From Acidobacteriota bacterium (GTDB lineage: Bacteria > Acidobacteriota > Terriglobia > Terriglobales > Acidobacteriaceae): a stretch of DNA of 64,000 nt. Under the pieces are notes generated by a model. The model was not told the DNA's origin and did not search any database. It saw only the letters and a program-made list of their open reading frames with translations. The stretch is taken from assembly GCA_016196065.1 (NCBI GenBank), contig JACPYL010000010.1:1798001-1862000 (forward strand). The letters are read 5' to 3'. Positions 7,602 to 19,589 of the stretch are shown here, one piece after another. The stretch's first letter is position 1, and every line of letters begins with the position of its first letter. The position numbers were made by a program, and so were the translations under genes.

Positions 7602-10154
7602 TTATTGCGGCTTCGGCGCGTTGGCGCTGGCAAGTTTCTGTGCCTCACCAATCAAGGGTTCGAAATCTGGTTGGCCGCGAAGCGTCTTCCAGTCCGGACC
7701 TTTCTTGAGATCTTCCAATGACTCCTCGTCGAGACCGTGACTTACCGCATCGTGCAAGAAGGAAATCGCTTCGCGGGGCCTTCGTGTGAGGGCATAGAGT
7801 CGAGCCAGATGATAGACGGAATCGACGGTATCCGGATGTGCGGGGCCGAATACTCGGCGTTGGATGTCGACCGATTCCTGAAGAGCAACAACCGCTTCCG
7901 CGTAGCGATGTTCTTCGTAAAGGACATCGGCAATGTTGTAGAGGGATAGGGCGGTCGTTGGATGATTAGGACCCAACAGCCGGCGACACTTCGCAAGCAC
8001 TTCCCTTTGTAGCGTCTCTGATTCCGGATAGCGATGTTCCGCTTCCAACACCGTCGCCGAGTTGAGCAAAGTATTCAAAACCCGCTGAGCATCCGGCCCA
8101 AACACGCGAGTCTCAGCTTCCAGTGTTTGCGAGTACAACTTTTCGGCTTCAGGGTACTGACCTTCTTCGACGAGCACAGAGGCCAGGTCGTCCATGACTT
8201 CAAGGGTTTTCGGGGCATCGGGACCGAAGACACGCCGTCGAATCGCCAAGTTCGCGTGGAGAATTTTGTCTGACTCTTCAGAACGCCCTTGTTGCACGAG
8301 CACAATCGCGAGACGCCTCTGCGATTCAATCGTCTCGGAATCGTCCGGTCCCAGAACCCGTTGCTGTCGCTCGAACACTTTTCGGCCTAAGACTTCGGCT
8401 TCCGCGTAGCGGCCAGCTAATCCCAGGGTTCGGGACAAGTCCGATTCAGTTGCGAGTGTGATTGCGTGATCCGGTCCAAGCGTACGACTCGTGACGCCCA
8501 CCAGGTCCCGTTCCATCGTCTCGGCTTCGGCATAGCGGTGTTGTTCGGAAATGGCCCAGGCTAACTGCCTCGCAGATGCAAGCGTCGTCGGATGTTCCGG
8601 ACCGAGAACTCTCCTTTGAATTTCTACCGTTTGCAGCAACAAAGTCTCGGCCCGCGCGTGCAGTTCGAGTCCTTCGTACACCGATCCCATTACCTGCAAC
8701 ATCTGCGCCTTCAGCTCCGGATCTTTCGCCAGGCCGGAGTCGATCTCCTTCGCTGACTTGTCGAGGATCTCGCGCGCCGTAATACTGTTGCCGCGTGCTT
8801 CGCTGGGATCCGAGACCGCGAACATGTTGGTCATGAAGTCGGTGATTCGATCCGCGCGATCGCGTTCGCGTGTGATTCGCCGCAACTCAATCGACTGCAT
8901 CACGGCAAAGGCAACCAACAACGCGGCGGCGCCCGAAGTCACTGCCACAACCACGGCATGACGGCGCACATATTTTTGAAGTCGATAGAAGTTGCTGGCC
9001 GGCCGCGCTTCCACCGGACGATTGCCCAGATAGTTTTCGACATCCGCCGCCAACGCTGAGGGCGTACCGTACCGCCGGTCGCGCTCTTTTTCCAGTGTCT
9101 TCAGTGTGATCCAGTCGAGGTCTCCCCGCAGCAAACCTGCGAGTTGACTGGGTTCCGTACTGCGAGCGCCCGCCCGTCCCGTCGACGTGTCACGGTTCTC
9201 TCCCACCTTCGTACTCGGACGCTTCGGATCCGTCTCCCGCAACTGCCGCAGCACTTCATCGAGCCGCTGGGTCTTCCACTGGCTTGTGTCGAAGGGCAAA
9301 AGGCCCGTGAGCAGCTCGTAGAGCACGACTCCCAGCGAATACACATCCGTCCGCGTGTCGATGTCATGAATTGCCGGGTCGGCTTGTTCCGGACTCATGT
9401 AGCCCGGCGTCCCCACGAATCCTCCCACGTGTGTGTAGAGTGTTTCACCGGCTGCGTGGGGGACGGTCGCTTTGGCTAGCCCAAAGTCGATGATCCGCGA
9501 GGCCGGCTTGCCATCCACTTCCGTCACTAAAATATTGGAAGGCTTCAAGTCGCGATGGATGATCGCCTTCTGATGGGCATGCTGAACGCCGTCGCAGACT
9601 TGAACAAACAACTTCAGACGCTCTCGTATGCTGAGTTTCTTGCGATCACAGTAGTTCGTGATCGGCGGGCCATCGACATACTCCATCGCAAAATACGGTT
9701 GCCCGTCCGGCGTGGTGCCCGCGTCAAATACTTTCGCAATCGCTGGGTGCTCCATGATGGCCAGGGATTGCTGTTCGGATTGAAAGCGCTGCACCAGGGC
9801 ACTGTCGTATAGACCTGGGCGGATGAGTTTCAGGGCAACACGGCGGCGCACGGGTTCGGTTTGCTCCGCGAGCCAGACCTGTCCCATGCCACCCACCCCC
9901 AGGCGATGAATCAAGCGGTAAGGCCCAATGGTCTTGGTTTCGCCCGTCGGATCAGCTACGGTCGTCGCGACCCAGGGATTTCCGGAAAGCCCATCGGCAT
10001 CGACATAGGCGGCAAGCAAGGACTCAACTTCCGCGCGCAACTCTGCGTTCTGGCCGCACGCTTGACTGACAAACGACGGTCGATTCGCGGGTTCCTGTTC
10101 CAACGCTGCGCCGACAATCTCATTAATTCTTGGCCACCGCTTCGGCTTTTCCAC
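7602..10154 (-). CDS. Ser/Thr protein kinase with TPR sensor region
   Basis: 850-residue membrane kinase. Residues 1-75 are a helical lead-in. The kinase domain spans about 77-385, with GVGGMGQVW (P-loop), VALKLI (Lys), HRDLKPSN at about 200, DFGLAKA at about 222 and [10 protein letters not shown], so it should be catalytically active. One membrane segment follows at about 400-425. The C-terminal 420 residues contain about eight TPR-like units of 42 residues with the recurring [11 protein letters not shown] pattern. It lies 38 bases downstream of a close paralogue, and the two probably arose by tandem duplication. It is the last gene of the ECF sigma operon starting at 13676. Confidence 0.92.
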   Translation of the reverse strand: MEKPKRWPRINEIVGAALEQEPANRPSFVSQACGQNAELRAEVESLLAAYVDADGLSGNPWVATTVADPTGETKTIGPYRLIHRLGVGGMGQVWLAEQTEPVRRRVALKLIRPGLYDSALVQRFQSEQQSLAIMEHPAIAKVFDAGTTPDGQPYFAMEYVDGPPITNYCDRKKLSIRERLKLFVQVCDGVQHAHQKAIIHRDLKPSNILVTEVDGKPASRIIDFGLAKATVPHAAGETLYTHVGGFVGTPGYMSPEQADPAIHDIDTRTDVYSLGVVLYELLTGLLPFDTSQWKTQRLDEVLRQLRETDPKRPSTKVGENRDTSTGRAGARSTEPSQLAGLLRGDLDWITLKTLEKERDRRYGTPSALAADVENYLGNRPVEARPASNFYRLQKYVRRHAVVVAVTSGAAALLVAFAVMQSIELRRITRERDRADRITDFMTNMFAVSDPSEARGNSITAREILDKSAKEIDSGLAKDPELKAQMLQVMGSVYEGLELHARAETLLLQTVEIQRRVLGPEHPTTLASARQLAWAISEQHRYAEAETMERDLVGVTSRTLGPDHAITLATESDLSRTLGLAGRYAEAEVLGRKVFERQQRVLGPDDSETIESQRRLAIVLVQQGRSEESDKILHANLAIRRRVFGPDAPKTLEVMDDLASVLVEEGQYPEAEKLYSQTLEAETRVFGPDAQRVLNTLLNSATVLEAEHRYPESETLQREVLAKCRRLLGPNHPTTALSLYNIADVLYEEHRYAEAVVALQESVDIQRRVFGPAHPDTVDSVYHLARLYALTRRPREAISFLHDAVSHGLDEESLEDLKKGPDWKTLRGQPDFEPLIGEAQKLASANAPKPQ

Positions 10155-10192: not shown

Positions 10193-13108
10193 CTAGTTAG
10201 CCTTTTGTGCCGTGGTTACCGGGTGCTTCTGTGTTTCGGCTATCAGGGTCTCAAGACGCGCGTCTCCCCGGAGAGCCTTCAGGTCGGGATCGCCTCTCAT
10301 CTGTTGGGTATCCGTGTTGCCATTCGCAATCGCCAGGCGGAGATGCGAGATTGCGTCTTCCTTTTTCCCCTCGATTGCGGCCGCGCAGGCAAGGCCGTAC
10401 CACAGAATCGCAAGGTGGGACCGATCCTGACTCTGGACAGCGCGGTCGATCGCGACTTTCAACATCGCTTCCGCTTCGGGATATCGCCGCTCGCAACTCA
10501 GAGTGCTGCCTAAACCGGTAAGGGCTTCCAGGGTGCCAGGATTATCCGCACCTCGCTCACGAGTTTCTGCGTCGAGCGCCTCACGAAACAGTTTTTCCGA
10601 TTCCGCGCACTGGCCGCGCACTCGAAGAGTGGTTGCCAGGTTCTCAATCGATTCCAGAGTGGTAGGACTGCTGGGTCCGAGGACGCGCCGATCGACAGCC
10701 AGCGTCTCGCGCAGGAGTGTTTCGGCTTCGATGTAACGACCTTCCTGGCGCAAAGTCTGGCCAAGGTTCCCAATGGTGTCGAGCGTGGTCGGACTTTCCG
10801 GCCCGAGGGCTTTCCTCTGAACTTCGACCGCCCCGCGCAACAGGCTCTCTGATTCCGCATAGTGGCCCTCTTCACGCAGCAATATCGCGAGGTCGGTCGT
10901 GGTCGACTGCGTGTCCGGATGTTCATTGCCCAGTACGCGACGCTGCAGTGTGAGCGCGTCGCGATAGTGTTTTTCTGCCTCGACGACATTGCCTTCCGAT
11001 TCGAAATTTACGCCCATGTTGCGCATGGTCCAGAGGGTTTCGGGATGTTCCGGGCCCAGCACGCGGCGCTGCACTTCCAGTAAATCTCGATACATGGCTT
11101 CCGCTTCGGTGTACTTACCTTCTTCATGCAGGTTGAACGCAAGGTTGTTGGTAGTGACGAGGACGAGAGGGTTTTCAGGACCAAGTACTCGACGTTCCGT
11201 GTCGAGCAGTTCCCGCTTCAGCCTTCCTGCTTCCGTGACGTGGCCTTGTTTGCCCAGGTTGCTGGCAAGATGATGCATCGACGAAAGCGTTTCGTGATCT
11301 TCTTTGCCTAGAACCTCCCTGTCGGTCTCGACTGCCTCGCGTAGAAGCCTGTCGGCATCTGCGTAGTGCCCTTGCTGCGAGATCGTCCAACCCAACGCGT
11401 TCATTGAGGCTAACGTCTCCCGGTGTTTTGCTCCGAGAACTCGACGCTGGCCATCGAGAGCTTTTCTGAGCAAGACCTCCGCTTCCGGGTAGTGGCCTTG
11501 CTGCATCAGCGTCCATGCGAGTAATCGCATCATCGTTAGAGTGGCGGGGTCATCGTCACCAAGAAGCCTGCGATCGGTTTCCAACGCGCGTTCGTAGAGG
11601 GCATGGGCGCGCGGATAAAGCCCTAGGCCTTGATAGGTCCGTGCCATGGCACCGGTAAGTTGAGCTTGCAGCAAAGGGTCTTTGGCGAGGCCGGAGTCAA
11701 TTTCTTTCGACGATTTGTCGAGAATTTCGCGAGCCGTAATGCTGTTGCCGCGTGCTTCGCTCGGGTCCGACACCTTGAACATGTTGGTCATGAACTCGGT
11801 GATGCGATCCGCTCGGTCGCGCTCGCGGGTAATGCGTCGCAGTTCAATTGACTGGGTGACGGCAAACGCAATCAGCAGGGCGGCCGATCCCGTCGCCACC
11901 GCTACGGCGATTCCGTGCCGCCGGATGTACTTGCGCAGTCGATATGTCGCGCTTGCCGGCCGCGCTTCAACGGGACGATTCTCGAGATAGTTTTCAACAT
12001 CCCCGGACAGCGCTGATGGCGTTCCGTATCTGCGATCGCGATCTTTTTCGAGAGCCCTCAACGTGATCCAGTCAAGATCTCCGCGCAAAGAACTGACGAG
12101 CTGACCGGGTTCTGTGCTTCGCGCTTCCGCGTGTGCAGTGGACGTGTCACGGTTCTGCCCAACTTTCGCACTGGGGCGTTCCGGGTCCGTTTCCTTTAGC
12201 TGGCGTAGCACTTCATCCAGCCTCTGATCCTTCCACTGGGTCGTATCGAACGGAAGAGAGCCAGTCAGCAGTTCATAAAGAATCACGCCCAGCGAATACA
12301 CATCCGTGCGCGTGTCGATATCGCGCACGTTCGGGTCGGCCTGCTCGGGACTCATATAACCCGGCGTCCCCAGAAATGCTCCCACTTGCGTAAAGAGCGT
12401 TTCACCCGGAACCGGCGTCATGGTTGCCTTGGCTAGGCCGAAGTCGATAATGCGCGGCGTGGGTTTGCCATCCACTTCTGTGATCAGAATGTTGGACGGT
12501 TTCAGGTCGCGATGGATGATCGCTTTCTGATGGGCGTGCTGCACGCCTTCACAGACCTGGGCGAAAAGCTTCAGCCGGTCGCGGATTCCTAGTTTCTTCT
12601 TATCGCAGTAGTCGGTGATCGGCGGGCCATCGACATACTCCATTGCAAAATAGGGCTGACCCTCGGGGGTAGCACCGGCATCGAACACTTTGGCAATCGC
12701 AGGATGTTCCATGATCGCCAGCGACTGCCGTTCCGACTGAAAGCGCTTGACCAGAGCTTCGTCATAGACGCCGGCTCGGATCAACTTCAGCGCAATGCGG
12801 CGCCGAACCGGTTCGCTCTGCTCAGCCAGCCAGACTTGTCCCATGCCACCCACGCCGAGTCGATGAATCAGGCGGTAGGGGCCAATCGTCTTGGTGTCGC
12901 CGACAGGATCAGCGACGGTTGCGGCCCAGGGATTTTCAGAAAGACCGTCCGCATCAGCGTGGGCAGCGATCAGGGATTCGACTTCGTTGCGCAGGCCCAC
13001 GTCCCCTGCGCAAGCCGCATCGAGAAACGCTGGGCGCTTTGCCGGCTCTTGTTCCAGTGCAGTGCCGACGATCTCCTTAATTTTTTCCCACTGCTCCGGC
13101 GTCGCCAC
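10193..13108 (-). CDS. Ser/Thr protein kinase with TPR sensor region
   Basis: 971-residue paralogue of the downstream kinase with the same plan. The N-terminal kinase has [21 protein letters not shown] at about 201, DFGLAKA and [11 protein letters not shown] membrane helix sits at about 395-420. The TPR tail has about ten units (for example [12 protein letters not shown] and [12 protein letters not shown]) and is longer than its neighbour's. The ORF starts 32 bases inside the upstream sigma factor gene, so the two are translationally coupled. That coupling suggests the kinase controls the ECF factor, as shown for some kinase-partnered ECF factors; here it is inference. Confidence 0.92.
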
Positions 13109-13705: not shown

Positions 13706-13734
13706 AAGATAACTGTGCTCCTCTGTCTAGTCAA
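13706..13734 (-). promoter_or_regulatory. Sigma70-type promoter of the ECF-kinase operon
   Basis: Read on the minus strand: TTGACT (13734-13729), 17 bases, TATCTT (13711-13706), about 30 bases before the GTG at 13676. Spacing is ideal and the -35 box is 5/6 to consensus, so the operon is probably transcribed by the housekeeping sigma factor. Confidence 0.6.
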
Positions 13735-13796: not shown

Positions 13797-13827
13797 TGAC
13801 CCGATTTTTCCATTTGTTTCCGCAGTT
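13797..13827 (+). promoter_or_regulatory. Shared ECF-like promoter motif, copy A
   Basis: TGACCC, 14 bases, TTTCCGCAGTT, ending 103 bases before the ATG at 13931. Two further copies with exactly the same boxes and the same 14-base gap occur at 14673 and 18517. If the -35 is TGACCC and the -10 lies in CCGCAGTT, the spacer is 17, normal for ECF promoters. It faces away from the ECF gene at 13077-13676. Confidence 0.65.
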
Positions 13828-13930
13828 GTAAGTGAAGGCTAGAAATGGATGGCTGGCAGAGAGGTTGGATGATCTGCGGTCAGTTCCCTACATCCGGATT
13901 GGCCATGACTCATTCTCAGGAGGATTCACC

Positions 13931-14599
13931 ATGAAAAAGCAAATCATGTTCGCCATCCTGGCGATGTCCTTTTTCGCCAGCACCGCCCGTTTCGCCCTTG
14001 CGCAGGACTTGAATATCGACGACTTCACTACCGGAAAGTCTGCGATTCTCTCCTACAAGAGCGGAATTCACACGGTGACGCAAACCGGGGATCCAAACCA
14101 TCTGATCGGCGGAACCCGTGCAACCACCATCAACATTGCCAGTAATCCGCTGAACCAGATATCCACATTCCAGTTTCGCCCCGATGTGAAGAATCACCTC
14201 TCGGCGTTTGTGCAGAATCCAGCGTTCTACGTCAGCCATCGGATTGACATGCAGTACGGCAACGGCGCACCAATGCATGCGGACCTCAGCCCGTATTTCT
14301 CAAACGGATTCATCCGCTTGAATTTTCTGGGGCTGACCGAAAACCTGAACTTCAACATTCAGCTCTTCACAGGGACCGTATGGGCTCAGGGTGGCTGCAA
14401 TATTGGCTACTACCCAGGCTCGTTCAGCGTTGAGTTACCGCTGTCGAAGTTCGATGACAAAGGCATCAACTTCGCTGACGTCACCTATATGAACTTTATT
14501 TTCCAATCGGGCAGCGGAGTCGGAATTGTCAGCTCTGCAGTTACTTCGATTGAGGTTTCCAACGTAAGCAAACCGGGCGCTCTCTCCTGTCACTTCTAG
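13931..14599 (+). CDS. Secreted protein, unknown function
   Basis: 222 residues from an ATG with AGGAGG nine bases upstream; the longer frame from 13832 has no ribosome site and would precede the signal peptide. The N-terminus KKQIMFAILAMSFFASTARFALAQ is a signal peptide with likely cleavage after ALA. The mature part is beta-rich with no recognised domain (LNIDDFTTGKSAILSYKSG, then TSIEVSNVSKPG near the end). A single Cys pair is present, at GGCNIGY and LSCHF. It is the first gene after promoter copy A, and a 12-bp hairpin follows it. Probably an extracellular or periplasmic carbohydrate-binding-like protein, but that is a guess. Confidence 0.75.
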   Translation: MKKQIMFAILAMSFFASTARFALAQDLNIDDFTTGKSAILSYKSGIHTVTQTGDPNHLIGGTRATTINIASNPLNQISTFQFRPDVKNHLSAFVQNPAFYVSHRIDMQYGNGAPMHADLSPYFSNGFIRLNFLGLTENLNFNIQLFTGTVWAQGGCNIGYYPGSFSVELPLSKFDDKGINFADVTYMNFIFQSGSGVGIVSSAVTSIEVSNVSKPGALSCHF

Positions 14600-14612
14600 T
14601 CCGGGAAGGTCA

Positions 14613-14658
14613 AAGCGCGCTTCGTTAGCAATGCCATGGCGGCATCACGAAGCGCGCT
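14613..14658 (+). terminator. Long hairpin after the secreted-protein gene
   Basis: AGCGCGCTTCGT (14613-14624) pairs perfectly with ACGAAGCGCGCT (14647-14658). It lies 14 bases after the stop codon and just before promoter copy B, so it separates two independently promoted genes. The downstream tract is A/T-rich but has no clean U-run. Confidence 0.65.
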
Positions 14659-14672
14659 CATCGAAAATATTT

Positions 14673-14703
14673 TGACCCGATTCTCCCCTCGATTTCCGCA
14701 GTT
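14673..14703 (+). promoter_or_regulatory. Shared ECF-like promoter motif, copy B
   Basis: TGACCC, 14 bases, TTTCCGCAGTT, ending 89 bases before the ATG at 14793. Box sequence and spacing are identical to copies A (13797) and C (18517), while the spacer bases largely differ between copies. Confidence 0.65.
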
Positions 14704-14792
14704 GTTATTAAGCGGCAATTCTGTTCGATGCCGAACCAAGACTCAAATAGAAAAGGGCCCGGATTACTTCGACTTTCACCACTGGAGGCGTT

Positions 14793-16349
14793 ATGAACAT
14801 CAACCGAAGGCTGACCCGATACCTGGTAGTGACTTGCTCGCTTTTGATTACTCCATGGGCAGTCGCCCAGAAAGATCCCGGCGTTCGAGGCGGGATCGCC
14901 AACACGGGAGGAGGCTTGCAGCAGCAAGGGATTCCAATTCCACATCCGCCGCTCATGAGTCCGAACCCGACGACCGGCGCCACCGTTAACGAGAACGAAC
15001 GGGTGTCATTTGAAGAAGGGATTCTGCGTGCTGGACAACTCGAGTCCACTTGCGATGACTGCGCCGATGTCACCGACGGATCGCCGGTCGAAGGATTGGG
15101 AGAACTTGACCCGATGTTCCCTCAATTTCACACCAACTCGAATGGCCTTGGCGCGCGGCATAACGCCGATCAATGCTTCGCTTGCCATGCGCAGCCGCAA
15201 CTGGGAGGGTCGGGCGGATATATCGTTCCCAATCCGGGCGATCCCACTCCGCAGCAGGCGGAGAATCCGCAGTTCCGACTGGTCCCTCATCGCTACAGCC
15301 GGCAGAATAAAGTTCCTGCCTTCGAAACGCAGTACGGTCCGATCCGTGAAGTGCGCTTCAAGTATCATCCTGACGGAACGCGCGACGGTGGCGTTCATCA
15401 GCTCTGGACCGTACGGGGCAGCACCAATGACCCGACCATCCCCAATTGCGCGCTGACACAACCGGACTTTGCCGCCGAAGCGAAAGCGCACAACCTTGCG
15501 TTCCGCATTCCCCTGCAGATGACCGGGCTGGGACTGATTGAATCCATTCAGGACCGCGAGATCCTCGCCCAACACGATGCGACGGCAACTCTGCGCGCGC
15601 CGCTCGGAATCACCGGACATCCGAACCGCAGCGGCAACGATGGCACCATCACGCGTTTTGGATGGAAAGCGCAAAACAAGTCCATCACGATCTTCGCCGG
15701 GGAAGCCTACAACGTGGAAATGGGCATCACCAACGAAGCGTTTCCGACCGCGACCGAAGAGGATCCCAATTGCCAGGGTCCGAACAAGCCGGAGCCGAAC
15801 GATGTCGTTCGAACGGACTCGGATGAGCACAACAATCAGTATTTCAACAATCCCCTGCACATCTTGCCCGACTGGAACCAGTTTCAGATGCTGATGCGCT
15901 TTACAGACGGGCCGGCTCCCGACCCAAACCCGAGCGCGAGCGCGCAGCATGGACGCGACGTCTTCACTCAAATCGGTTGCTCCCTGTGCCATACGTCACA
16001 GATGCAAACGGCACCCGTGATGAATAGTCCTGTTCTTCAGAATCGGCCTGTCAACCTGTTCTCCGATCTGATGGTGCATCACATGGGCGGCAAACTCGCG
16101 GACGACATCATGCAGGGACAGGCCGGTCCCGATGAATTTCGTTCTACGCCACTGTGGGGCGTCGGCCAACGTATCTTCTTCCTTCATGATGGTCGAACCA
16201 GTGATCTTCTTGAAACGATCAAGGCTCATCACTCGCCAGCCGGCTACAAGGGATTTCCCGCGTCGGAGGCAAACGGTGTAGTCCAGAAGTTCAACGGCTT
16301 GTCGCCGCAGGACAAGCAGGCGATTCTGGATTTCCTGCGTTCCCTGTAA
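14793..16349 (+). CDS. Di-haem oxidoreductase family protein (DUF1111-like)
   Basis: 518-residue exported cytochrome. Residues 1-25 are a signal peptide ending in AVA-Q. Two haem c attachment motifs are visible: CFACH at about residue 128 and CSLCH at about residue 400. The C-terminal half ends with the family-typical FRSTPLWGVGQRIFFLHDGR and LSPQDKQAILDFLRSL. The family (putative thiol oxidoreductases) is poorly characterised and acts in the periplasm, probably passing electrons to or from a terminal acceptor. A clear GGAGG lies before the ATG, and promoter copy B lies 89 bases upstream. A 12-bp hairpin follows the gene. Confidence 0.88.
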   Translation: MNINRRLTRYLVVTCSLLITPWAVAQKDPGVRGGIANTGGGLQQQGIPIPHPPLMSPNPTTGATVNENERVSFEEGILRAGQLESTCDDCADVTDGSPVEGLGELDPMFPQFHTNSNGLGARHNADQCFACHAQPQLGGSGGYIVPNPGDPTPQQAENPQFRLVPHRYSRQNKVPAFETQYGPIREVRFKYHPDGTRDGGVHQLWTVRGSTNDPTIPNCALTQPDFAAEAKAHNLAFRIPLQMTGLGLIESIQDREILAQHDATATLRAPLGITGHPNRSGNDGTITRFGWKAQNKSITIFAGEAYNVEMGITNEAFPTATEEDPNCQGPNKPEPNDVVRTDSDEHNNQYFNNPLHILPDWNQFQMLMRFTDGPAPDPNPSASAQHGRDVFTQIGCSLCHTSQMQTAPVMNSPVLQNRPVNLFSDLMVHHMGGKLADDIMQGQAGPDEFRSTPLWGVGQRIFFLHDGRTSDLLETIKAHHSPAGYKGFPASEANGVVQKFNGLSPQDKQAILDFLRSL

Positions 16350-16364
16350 GCAACTACTCGCCAT

Positions 16365-16396
16365 CCGCCTGCTGCCTCTCCTCCGGCAGCAGGCGG
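16365..16396 (+). terminator. GC-rich hairpin after the di-haem gene
   Basis: CCGCCTGCTGCC (16365-16376) pairs perfectly with GGCAGCAGGCGG (16385-16396) across an 8-base loop. It lies 15 bases after the stop and 20 bases before the next ATG. No U-tract follows, so it could be an attenuator or an mRNA-stabilising stem as easily as a terminator. Confidence 0.55.
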
Positions 16397-16415
16397 GTAC
16401 TTTCGGAGCCTCGAT

Positions 16416-17495
16416 ATGAAACGCTTTCTTCTGACACGTGACGCGTGCAGCTGGGCCTGCGTACTGGTCTTGCTTTTTCTCCCGTCAGCGAGCGTAGCCT
16501 CCAGCGTAGTTGGGAGAGTCATCAATCGCAGCCAGAACCGGACGTCGGCAGGCGATGATGTTGTTTTGTACGGCATCGGTCAAACGATGTACGAGATCGC
16601 TCGGACCCGGACCGGACCTGACGGCTCCTTTCAATTTGAGAATCCAACTAATAGTTCCTACCTGGTCGCGGCTTTCCACCAAGGTGTTTCCTACCACACG
16701 AAAACGCTGCGGGGCGACGGGCCTGTAGAACTAACTGTCTACGATGCGGCGCAAAAGGTGGCCGACATCCTTGATGGCTCGCATACGCTCTTCGTGCGAC
16801 CGGCGGATCGTGATGTCAATATCACGGAATTCGTTTCGATTTCGAACCAGTCCAATCCGCCACGGACCTTGTCCGGCACGCAGACTTTCAAGCTCGTGCT
16901 TCCAGAACGGGCAATCCTGGACTCGACAGCCATGCAACCGCCTGGAACACTTCCCTTGCGAGTCAAGGCCTCGGCTTGCGGCCGGCAAAATCAATACTGC
17001 GTGAGCTACCCGATGCGCCCGGGAACGACTCGCCTCCGCGCGGTCTATCACCTGCAACAACCGTCTACCGCGTGGATTGCATTACCTCCGCGACTCGGCG
17101 CGGGGCGCGTAGCGGTAATGGTCGCGCATTCTCTCGAACTCACAGGCAAGCTGGCTGGAACCTTTGAGAAACAAGAGACCGAAGGCGGCATGTCGATGTA
17201 CGTGGCGAACAAAGGTGCGATCGGTGCCGTGCTCCTATTCCGATTGTCAAAAGCCGATCCCAACACGGTGGAACCGAAGCTCTCCAGCACTCCTGTTGTT
17301 TTCGGCACACCGTCCAGTTTCCGGGCGACTGAATTCACACTGCCTCCCGCGCGAGGTCGTGCACCATCACAGATCTCGATGGCCTCAATCAGCAAGGCGT
17401 CGCTCGCATTCCTAGTAAGCCTGGCATTGATCATGACGATCGGTGCGGGCGCGAATCGATACGCACGGAACTTCGCCGCCGGAGATAGAGCATGA
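16416..17495 (+). CDS. Exported membrane-anchored protein with carboxypeptidase-regulatory-like fold
   Basis: 359 residues. An N-terminal signal peptide (ACVLVLLFLPSASVASS) is followed by a transthyretin-like segment at about 30-110 (VVGRVINRSQNRTSAGDDVVLY, then TGPDGSFQFENP). The middle is beta-rich. One helix near the C-terminus, about 330-350 (SLAFLVSLALIMTIGAG), is followed by basic residues, so the bulk should face the periplasm. It overlaps the next gene by four bases (ATGA), so these two are a coupled pair and may follow the di-haem oxidoreductase on one transcript. Function is unknown; such proteins often assist export of redox or polysaccharide systems. Confidence 0.7.
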   Translation: MKRFLLTRDACSWACVLVLLFLPSASVASSVVGRVINRSQNRTSAGDDVVLYGIGQTMYEIARTRTGPDGSFQFENPTNSSYLVAAFHQGVSYHTKTLRGDGPVELTVYDAAQKVADILDGSHTLFVRPADRDVNITEFVSISNQSNPPRTLSGTQTFKLVLPERAILDSTAMQPPGTLPLRVKASACGRQNQYCVSYPMRPGTTRLRAVYHLQQPSTAWIALPPRLGAGRVAVMVAHSLELTGKLAGTFEKQETEGGMSMYVANKGAIGAVLLFRLSKADPNTVEPKLSSTPVVFGTPSSFRATEFTLPPARGRAPSQISMASISKASLAFLVSLALIMTIGAGANRYARNFAAGDRA

Positions 17496-18466
17496 TGAAA
17501 AGCGCTCTTATCAAGCAGTTCGCCCGGCGCATCACGGTGATGATCGGTGTCGCTGCCCTTGTCCAACCAGTGGGCGCGCAAGTGATCAACCACTATCACC
17601 GCACGCTGACGGTCGCGATGAACGATGCGGTGATGTTGGATGTCGACGTCCCGAAGGGCGAACTGCAGATTTTTTACAGCCACGAAGGCCAGCTATCCGT
17701 GACCGCTTCATCGCAGATTTCTTCCCGAGCAATGCAGGAAAGTGATCTCGAAGCAGCCATTTCAATCGTGCAGGACGGGAATCGGATCCGCCTGAGACAC
17801 GTTTCACCGTCCCCCGAAGATGCTGGCGTTGGAGTCTTGTATCGGCTTGACGTCCCGTATCGCACGGCGGTCACTGCAACCATTCACGAGGGCAAGCTGG
17901 CCATCAGTGGAATCCTGGGCCCGGTGCAGGCGACGACGGACCGCGGAAATATCACGGCGTCGTACATATCAAAGGAACTCGTTGCCAGGGCCGGGTCAGG
18001 GGACTTGGAGATTCAGGTCATCGGAGCCATGGTCGACGCATCGACCGGAAACGGGAACATCTCCTGCAGTCGTGCCGCGCAAGGCGTCACCGCTGAAACG
18101 CAAGCAGGCGACATTACGTTAATGGTGGTTGGACCATCGTCGGCGATCGTGAAGAGTGGCACGGGCAGAATTAATATCGGAGGCGCTCGGGGCGCCCTGC
18201 AGGGCACAACCGATGCAGGCGACCTCCGCGTCAAGGCAGTTCCCTATCAAGACTGGCATCTGCGGTCAGTGGCGGGAGCGGTACGAATCGAACTTCCTCC
18301 CAGTGCCAAGTTCAACGTGGAAGCCGCTTCTACCTCGGGTGAAGTAGCCGTGGAACGCGATGACATCCCGCGTGCCGACGATCACCACCACTTGAGTCAG
18401 TCTGTACGCGGCGGCGGCCCATTGATGGACGCCCGAACGGAAAGTGGCAGGATTGTGATCCAGTAA
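17492..18466 (+). CDS. Secreted DUF4097-like beta-helix protein
   Basis: 324 residues starting in the ATGA overlap with the upstream gene. A signal peptide covers about 1-29 (VMIGVAALVQPVGAQ). The body is made of repeated short beta units with Gly-Asn/Asp turns (TDRGNITASYISKELVARAGSGDLEIQ, then TGNGNISCSRAAQGVTAETQAGDITL), typical of the DUF4097 putative adhesin fold. The C-terminus holds a His cluster (DDHHHLSQ). Its role is probably at the cell envelope. It shares a transcript with the membrane-anchored protein before it. Confidence 0.75.
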   Translation: MMKSALIKQFARRITVMIGVAALVQPVGAQVINHYHRTLTVAMNDAVMLDVDVPKGELQIFYSHEGQLSVTASSQISSRAMQESDLEAAISIVQDGNRIRLRHVSPSPEDAGVGVLYRLDVPYRTAVTATIHEGKLAISGILGPVQATTDRGNITASYISKELVARAGSGDLEIQVIGAMVDASTGNGNISCSRAAQGVTAETQAGDITLMVVGPSSAIVKSGTGRINIGGARGALQGTTDAGDLRVKAVPYQDWHLRSVAGAVRIELPPSAKFNVEAASTSGEVAVERDDIPRADDHHHLSQSVRGGGPLMDARTESGRIVIQ

Positions 18467-18516
18467 CGAAGTCCCATCCCTCCCAGGCTAGAATCTTCCG
18501 CCTTGACGATTATTTC

Positions 18517-18547
18517 TGACCCATTTGGCCGGTCGCTTTCCGCAGTT
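18517..18547 (+). promoter_or_regulatory. Shared ECF-like promoter motif, copy C
   Basis: TGACCC, 14 bases, TTTCCGCAGTT, ending 43 bases before the ATG at 18591. As in copy A, the bases just after the motif contain AGTGAA. It lies 50 bases after the end of the DUF4097-like gene, giving the HAF-repeat gene its own start site. Confidence 0.65.
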
Positions 18548-18590: not shown

Positions 18591-19589
18591 ATGATCAAGA
18601 AATCGGAAGTCATACTATTTGCGACCCTGCTCTGCATTGCAGTTGTTGTAACCCCGTCCTTGCAGGCACAGAGCTTACACGAGGAACGCGGCAACCACAT
18701 GGGAGCCTCCCCCTTGATGAATCCCGATGAGCTTCGGACGGCGCCACCGGATATCGGCTCCGCAAACACGGTCACAGAAGCCAGCGTCAACAATCCTCAG
18801 CAGCCCGATGGCAAGGCAATCTCATTCACCACGATCGACTATCCCGGGGCCTCGTACTCGCTGGTGCTCGATACCAATGCCTCGACGGCTGTGGGCATGT
18901 TCTCCTTTGACGCCGGCAATACGGTGCACGCGTTCAGCATTAAGGGCACGAAGTACAAGACGCTCGCCATTCCCGGATCATCCGCAAGTTGGGCAGCTGG
19001 GATCAATACCGGCGGCCAGATCGTAGGCGTCTCAGTGGACATGTCGGGTACGTGGCACGGATTCGTTGAGAACGGCACCTCCATCACTCCCCTCGACTAT
19101 CCGGGCGCGCTGATGACGGCTGCCGATGACATCAACGACTCCGGTGAGATCGTCGGATTCCATGCTGACAGCAGCAACCAAGGCGGTTTCCTATATAAGG
19201 CCGGAACGTTCACGAACATCTCCTTCCCCGGCTCCGCGCGCACGCAGGCATTCGCAATCAATACCAATGGCGATATCGTTGGACGATGGAAAGATGTCGC
19301 CAACGTGTATCACGGCTATGTTCTGAAGAATGGTGTGTTCACTTCACTAGACTTCCCGCAGGCCGTTTACACGGATTCGTGGGGCATCAATGATGCCGGA
19401 ACAATTTCGGGAACCTACGACGATGCCGCCGGCCTGGAACATGGATACACCTATGCCAATGGCACCTTCACCAAAATCGATGTCGTCGGAGCCTCGTTCA
19501 CCGAGTTGTACCACATCAAAAACAACGGAACGATCGTGGGAAGTTTCGTTGACAGCCTGAGCGAGACACACGGGATCAAAGGACATTAA
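18591..19589 (+). CDS. Secreted HAF-repeat protein
   Basis: 332 residues from an ATG with GGGAGGAG upstream; the frame is open to 18525, but that segment contains promoter copy C. The signal peptide is EVILFATLLCIAVVVTPSLQAQ. The mature protein consists of about seven repeats of 40 residues with patterns such as FTTIDYPGASYS, GINTGGQIVGVSVD, DINDSGEIVGFHAD and AINTNGDIVGRW, characteristic of extracellular HAF-repeat proteins. Molecular function is unknown; the repeats probably form a beta-propeller-like shell. It ends before a convergent tRNA gene. Confidence 0.85.
   Translation: MIKKSEVILFATLLCIAVVVTPSLQAQSLHEERGNHMGASPLMNPDELRTAPPDIGSANTVTEASVNNPQQPDGKAISFTTIDYPGASYSLVLDTNASTAVGMFSFDAGNTVHAFSIKGTKYKTLAIPGSSASWAAGINTGGQIVGVSVDMSGTWHGFVENGTSITPLDYPGALMTAADDINDSGEIVGFHADSSNQGGFLYKAGTFTNISFPGSARTQAFAINTNGDIVGRWKDVANVYHGYVLKNGVFTSLDFPQAVYTDSWGINDAGTISGTYDDAAGLEHGYTYANGTFTKIDVVGASFTELYHIKNNGTIVGSFVDSLSETHGIKGH

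Follow-up and report, generated by a model that had tools for sequence, protein, structure and literature searches.

The window analysed here is a 64-kb stretch from the genome of an Acidobacteriota bacterium (G000; 5.53 Mb in 29 contigs). On its minus strand lies an operon of an extracytoplasmic function (ECF) sigma factor gene and two Hanks-type kinase genes and, divergent from it on the plus strand, three units of genes for exported proteins that are each led by a copy of the same two-box motif (Table 1). This motif is our subject, and we propose that it is a promoter used by the adjacent sigma factor. Copies A, B and C lie where the first-pass annotation had placed them, with identical boxes and a gap of 14 bases each, whereas their spacers and flanks are not alike. 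As it had also claimed, an exported-protein gene begins 43-103 bases past each copy (103 bases from motif end to ATG for A, 89 for B and 43 for C).

Motif copies in the window and the genome

Scanning the window with up to three mismatches gave four matches, three exact and one with three mismatches, against a mean of 0.15 and a largest count of 1 in 100 shuffled versions. The full 31-mer, TGACCC-N14-TTTCCGCAGTT, has exactly three exact occurrences genome-wide, all of them in the window. Its core, TGACCC-N14-TTTCCGCA, has exactly four in G000, compared with none for the reversed-pattern control, and all four (A-D) precede exported-type genes. Copy D (C10:1672790) lies about 125 kb upstream of the window start; the ATG that follows it after 24 bases opens a gene for a protein of 185 aa that begins like a signal peptide. 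It is without the GTTGTTAGT tail and scores 29.0 bits against a matrix made from sites of other species only, where 23.4 bits corresponds to about one chance match per genome. Looser matching in G000 gave no excess over the reversed control for the core at up to two mismatches (40 versus 40) and no useful excess for the 31-mer at up to three (20 versus 17), so that only near-perfect copies are meaningful and the analysis rested on near-exact copies and profile scores in place of loose counting. The frequent occurrence at random genome positions that the first-pass annotation had named as an objection is not seen for exact copies.

The window's sigma factor scores 214.2 bits against TIGR02999 (Sig-70_X6; curated cut-off 126.15) and 176.9 bits against PF07638 (cut-off 21.1), and is the sole predicted DNA-binding protein of the ECF-kinase-kinase operon. 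Both kinases carry the catalytic motifs and, near residue 400, one predicted transmembrane segment that is followed by TPR repeats. Among 88 loci, the window's included, a kinase signature was found within 5 kb downstream of the ECF gene in 70, only upstream in 5 and not at all in 5, with too little sequence in the other 8. The separate sigma70-like promoter ascribed to the ECF gene also recurs: TTGAC[ATG] stands at suitable spacing in 17 of 22 loci (the window and 21 relatives), TTTACT in three, and two have no good match. Because this promoter is conserved and sigma70-like, the ECF gene may well not be autoregulated. No relative of the first secreted protein (copy A) was found in the viral contigs searched, and no PDB relative of the ECF or the di-haem oxidoreductase (DHOR) protein.

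Table 1. Positions of the motif copies and neighbouring genes in the window (TM, transmembrane).
Feature	Position	Strand	Remarks
Second, similar Hanks-type kinase-TM-TPR gene	7602..10154	-	next after first kinase gene
Hanks-type Ser/Thr kinase, one predicted TM segment (from about residue 399), C-terminal TPR repeats	10193..13108	-	overlaps ECF gene
ECF sigma factor, 199 aa, TIGR02999 / PF07638	13077..13676	-	QSAA = residues 53-56 at sigma2.2
Sigma70-like promoter of ECF operon, TTGACT-N17-TATCTT	13706..13734	-	a similar one in most of the motif-bearing relatives examined
Motif copy A, TGACCC-N14-TTTCCGCAGTT	13797..13827	+	proposed -35/-10 of gene at 13931; leave-one-out 37.6 bits
Exported protein of unknown family, 222 aa, signal-peptide-like start	13931..14599	+	behind copy A
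Motif copy B	14673..14703	+	proposed promoter of three-gene DHOR operon; leave-one-out 58.0 bits
Di-haem oxidoreductase (DHOR, PF06537), exported, two CxxCH sites	14793..16349	+	first gene, copy-B operon
Exported protein of unknown family	16416..17495	+	second gene, copy-B operon
DUF4097 exported protein	17492..18466	+	third gene, copy-B operon
Motif copy C	18517..18547	+	proposed promoter of HAF-repeat gene; leave-one-out 40.3 bits
Exported HAF-repeat protein	18591..19589	+	behind copy C

Conservation of the motif beside related sigma genes

At the six closest orthologous loci found (L061-L064, G093 (L225) and G200:C98) the motif is present and divergent from the ECF gene, with up to two changes in the first box (TGACAC in L061, TGAGCT in L064). 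At L061-L064, where the sigma factor is 74-84% identical, it lies on the strand opposite to the ECF gene and 118-150 bases upstream of its start. The L062 motif leads the same three-gene order as in the window, with DHOR first, then a relative (45% identical) of the second gene in the window's operon, and then DUF4097; a DHOR gene follows the motif in L064 and G093 (L052), and a 44% identical relative of the window's first secreted protein follows it in L063/L165. The identity of DHOR in these relatives and the relationship of the secreted proteins were confirmed by test. The 11 close sites all share TGA, TTTCCGCA and some single positions, and in most of them GTTGTTAGT comes next. A profile of these sites gives E <= 6.8e-10 in all six contributing genomes, which is so by construction, and nothing below E 0.05 in six other same-genus genomes taken from the exact search, which is not; those six have either no sigma relative or a best one of 61% identity or less. 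We also observed two close orthologues of the window's ECF factor (83% and 81% identical) on contigs C7 and C98 of G200/G210 (L061, L179, L216), with a strong motif at both; G200 and G210 are apparently one assembly under two handles.

In the larger set of 87 loci, which leaves out the window's own, exact matches to TGASCC-N13/14-TTYYCGCW were found within 300 bases of the ECF start on the divergent strand in 13 loci and on the ECF gene's own strand in one, with a mean of 0.01 and a maximum of 1 in shuffles. With one mismatch allowed the counts were 18 and 1 (shuffle mean 0.15, maximum 2). This pattern was chosen after seeing L061-L100. Expectation maximisation (EM), run with no fixed seed over 83 upstream regions that included the window's, returned the same element as the best motif, and on the other strand its reverse complement. 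The refined matrix, which scores the very loci that it was fitted on, put 44 of the 83 regions above the 99% shuffle level, and in 30 of these 44 the site lies 115-210 bases from the ECF start. Training on the loci of QS-type sigma factors brought 10 of 51 other loci above the 99% level, three of them on the other strand; the reverse training brought 7 of 32, one on the other strand and one (L073) away from its motif's place. When only the distant loci are used for learning, the motif again reads TG.C.G-TTTT...TTtcCGCAT.

The clean test, unlike the pattern and refined-matrix counts, is the one on held-out loci. Forty upstream stretches of further ECF relatives, 36 of them usable, were scored at a preset threshold of 12.33 bits; 19 of the 36 pass on the divergent strand and one on the other strand, against 0.94% of shuffles. 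Only exact duplicates had been removed from this set; most of it stems from the same genus, part of it from genomes that had already supplied other loci, and the G093 orthologue is among its members. Since the held-out loci are related to the training loci, they are independent sequences and not independent lineages.

The orientation of the motif points into genes for exported proteins. An exported-type protein lies behind it in 33 of the 40 motif loci with a divergent open reading frame (ORF; 44 motif loci in all), compared with 9 of 34 at loci without the motif (39 in all; Fisher p=1.5e-6) and 144 of 627 background ORFs (p=3e-14). The 40 include the window's own locus and the identical pair L107/L112, both scored as not exported. 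Among the 19 held-out passes the protein is of exported type in 16 of the 17 with a visible ORF, and two have no ORF within the stretch. Export was called not with SignalP but with a simple hydrophobicity rule of our own that prefers a signal-like start among several and was the same for loci with and without the motif.

Exact searches were also extended to more genomes. Across 200 family genomes the core gave 14 matches in 11 genomes versus 2 control matches, and five of the 14 are real by context (A-D and L052). At the other nine (L051-L060 except L052) no exported gene was evident behind the match; we treat them as chance, though nine against two in the control is a slight unexplained excess. 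A single pattern run across 15 related genomes matched in 9, and left G203 unmatched because its site is TGAGCT. A TGAGCC pattern that demanded TA after it was too strict (2 matches in 150 genomes, control 1) and was dropped. Separately, G207 carries three near-identical TGACACCCGTAATTGAGTTTTTCCGCA-type copies (L163, L171, L182) and G165 a similar sequence before a cold-shock-like protein (L170); these are apparently another repeat or leader element.

Proposed promoter dialects and the reading of the motif

G000 has eight TIGR02999 sigma genes above the family cut-off. The nearest paralogues of the window's sigma factor, L141 and L143, have TGAGCC-N13-TTTCCGCA and TGAGCC-N13-TTCTCGCA, respectively, before divergent exported-type genes. 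The pattern TGAGCC-N13-TTYYCGCW occurs five times in G000, against one match of the reversed control: at L141, at L143, at C12:546433 and at two places without a plausible exported gene in view. The C12:546433 site (L161, 1501-1527) reads TGAGCC-N13-TTTCCGCA, and 218 bases separate it from a start that has a Tat-like signal and is followed by a frame resembling a GMC oxidoreductase (both by eye); this gene is perhaps a member of a paralogue's regulon.

The dialect of the motif changes together with region 4.2 of the sigma factor. At the 16 loci with exact sites, the residue before TVKR is Ser in all five with TGACMC-N14 and Ala in all eleven with TGAGCC-N13. The rule also extends beyond the clade of the window: STVKR occurs in L071 (Occallatibacter savannae AB23, a cultured acidobacterium whose motif is a weak match) and in the more distant sigma factors from G147, G127 and G222 (L219, L220, L222), and their sites are TGACCC, TGGCCC or TGAACC with a gap of 14 bases. 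Looser sites at L064 (TGAGCT-N14, Ser) and L065 (N13, Ala) fit the same rule, and TGATAGG pairs with [VI]TVARDWSTAR in the two rows seen. Such a correlation is what direct recognition of the motif by the sigma factor would predict. The simplest reading of the first-pass annotation, a regulon of secreted proteins under the kinase-partnered ECF factor, is thereby supported: the motif accompanies the ECF gene in other species and in paralogues, is directed towards genes for exported proteins and shifts its dialect with region 4.2. We put a probability of about 0.86 on the motif being a -35/-10 promoter by which the adjacent TIGR02999 (ECF43-like) sigma factor, partnered with Hanks-type kinases, would switch on exported proteins.

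This reading can be spelled out as follows. TGACCC would act as the -35 and CCGCA as the -10 box, with the start site predicted about 5-12 bases further downstream. An ordinary sigma70-type promoter would make the ECF-kinase-kinase operon, and the transmembrane kinase-TPR proteins would sense a cue from the envelope or the outside and then activate the sigma factor. Its holoenzyme would transcribe a very small regulon, consisting of the secreted protein behind copy A, the copy-B operon, the HAF-repeat protein and one distant exported protein, and related sigma factors across Acidobacteriota may act likewise from dialects of one promoter.

Several observations weigh against it. In the refined-matrix survey 39 of 83 loci stay below the 99% shuffle level and show no clear motif, and 17 of the 36 held-out loci do not pass. 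Five of the eight TIGR02999 sigma genes of G000 are without a credible motif; L142, L146, L147 and L148 score low, and the match at L145 is 14 bases away from the gene's start and lacks an exported gene. The covariation with region 4.2 spans few lineages, and L066 (Ser, 13-base gap) breaks the rule. The boxes TGACCC and CCGCA are not the canonical ECF boxes AAC (-35) and CGT (-10), the position of the phospho-threonine expected for kinase control is Ala55, and a -35/-10 pair alone would be shorter than the conserved stretch of about 36 bases.

The length of this block would also suit the operator of an ordinary transcription factor that was inherited together with the ECF locus, and the start site that a sigma promoter requires is one that we infer. 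We nevertheless regard an operator as unlikely. By eye the boxes have no palindromic symmetry, no DNA-binding protein other than the ECF factor is predicted in the window's operon (genes further out were checked in some loci), the dialect shifts with sigma region 4.2, and motif-bearing paralogous ECF loci have a dialect of their own. Even less probable, in our estimate, is a sigma promoter for which the main reader of copies A-D is a different one, or more than one, of the eight TIGR02999 sigma factors in G000. The number of paralogues and the closeness of the dialects, which are one base and one spacer position apart, speak for such a reading, as does TGACCC-N14-TTTTCGCC, a close variant that G147 carries next to a sigma factor of 61% identity. 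Yet TGACMC-N14-TTTCCGCA was seen beside an ECF gene only at close orthologues of the window's sigma factor, the six same-genus genomes that have no close orthologue gave no match to the profile below E 0.05, and the two nearest paralogues in G000 have the TGAGCC-N13 form alongside. That duplication or mobility has spread a small sequence with no promoter function, as three copies within 4.8 kb might suggest, is most improbable given their unlike spacers and flanks, the failure to find a tandem repeat, their single orientation before genes, their retention across species and paralogues, and the held-out test.

Possible kinase control and the sigma factor family

If the adjacent sigma factor reads the motif, the way in which the kinases would act on it can be compared with known systems. 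ECF43 factors become active when a threonine of their sigma2.2 motif, QTTA/STTA, is phosphorylated (PMC8999054, PMC13147305, PMC8103513); this threonine stands at the third position in 88% of members (PMC13147305). The window's sigma factor resembles EcfP/PknT of Vibrio parahaemolyticus and EcfK/PknS of Xanthomonas citri in that its gene lies beside genes for Ser/Thr kinases (transmembrane in PknS) and in that the acidic DAED residues of sigma2.2 are missing (PMC8999054, PMC13147305), here replaced by the uncharged QSAA; the two kinase-TM-TPR genes of the operon are likewise of the Hanks type that accompanies ECF43 factors. It differs in having QSAA, with Ser54 and Ala55, where those have QxTA/STTA. 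Because the phospho-threonine position is Ala55, we call it ECF43-like and not a member. The proposed targets differ too: exported oxidoreductase, HAF-repeat and unknown proteins take the place of a type VI secretion system or of polymyxin resistance. With anti-sigma-controlled ECF factors such as RpoE it shares a two-domain sigma factor and a two-box promoter. Classical ECF hallmarks are autoregulation and AAC/CGT boxes (PMC8103513), in contrast to the sigma70-like promoter of the window's sigma gene and boxes of the form TGASCC and YCGCW.

Thr stands at position 3 of the sigma2.2 motif in 59 of 82 loci; the other 23 have Ala or Gly there and always Ser or Thr at position 2, and none of the 82 lacks both. 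The position-3 Thr changes four times on the tree, and an independent-pair test was not significant, with too few events. The phospho-acceptor has possibly shifted one position earlier. EcfK with its threonine changed to alanine is still functional in X. citri (PMC13147305), so that linker sites or Ser54 are possible targets in the window's sigma factor.

A TGTCCG-TTTT...TTTCCGCW-like dialect was observed beside more distant ECF relatives in L124 (a Chthoniobacterales record), L087 and L092. Because this dialect stands beside a Verrucomicrobia ECF relative, the promoter family may extend beyond Acidobacteriota. A broader conjecture, to which we give even odds, is that the kinase-ECF paralogues of Acidobacteriota are each wired to their own exported-protein genes through an insulated dialect (TGACCC-N14, TGAGCC-N13, TGATAGG, TGTCCG, TGAGGGA), with the -35 base, the spacer length and the Ser or Ala before TVKR in region 4.2 having changed together in at least two lineages and keeping the modules apart, and that in several lineages Ser/Thr at position 2 of the sigma2.2 motif may have taken over as phospho-acceptor from the Thr at position 3.

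Among the open-access matches listed, judged by title, by the beginning of the abstract and, for PMC13147305, PMC8999054, PMC8103513, PMC6653060 and PMC3174227, by part of the text, none describes target promoters of ECF43 or acidobacterial kinase-linked ECF factors, though the ECF reclassification paper, the original EcfP paper or supplements may hold a predicted motif. Predicted ECF target promoters come mainly from autoregulated ECF factors and known pairs (PMC8103513), so that kinase-controlled ECF factors such as these would be left out. The conserved divergent promoter proposed here would make targets of a large acidobacterial sigma family directly readable at the sequence level, and the data support extending the reading of a three-gene regulon to a family of sigma factors. 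It would also offer reporter constructs and candidate orthogonal sigma-promoter pairs. The output of these kinase-linked sigma factors appears to be mostly exported proteins, which suggests a role for a large and little-understood class of regulators.

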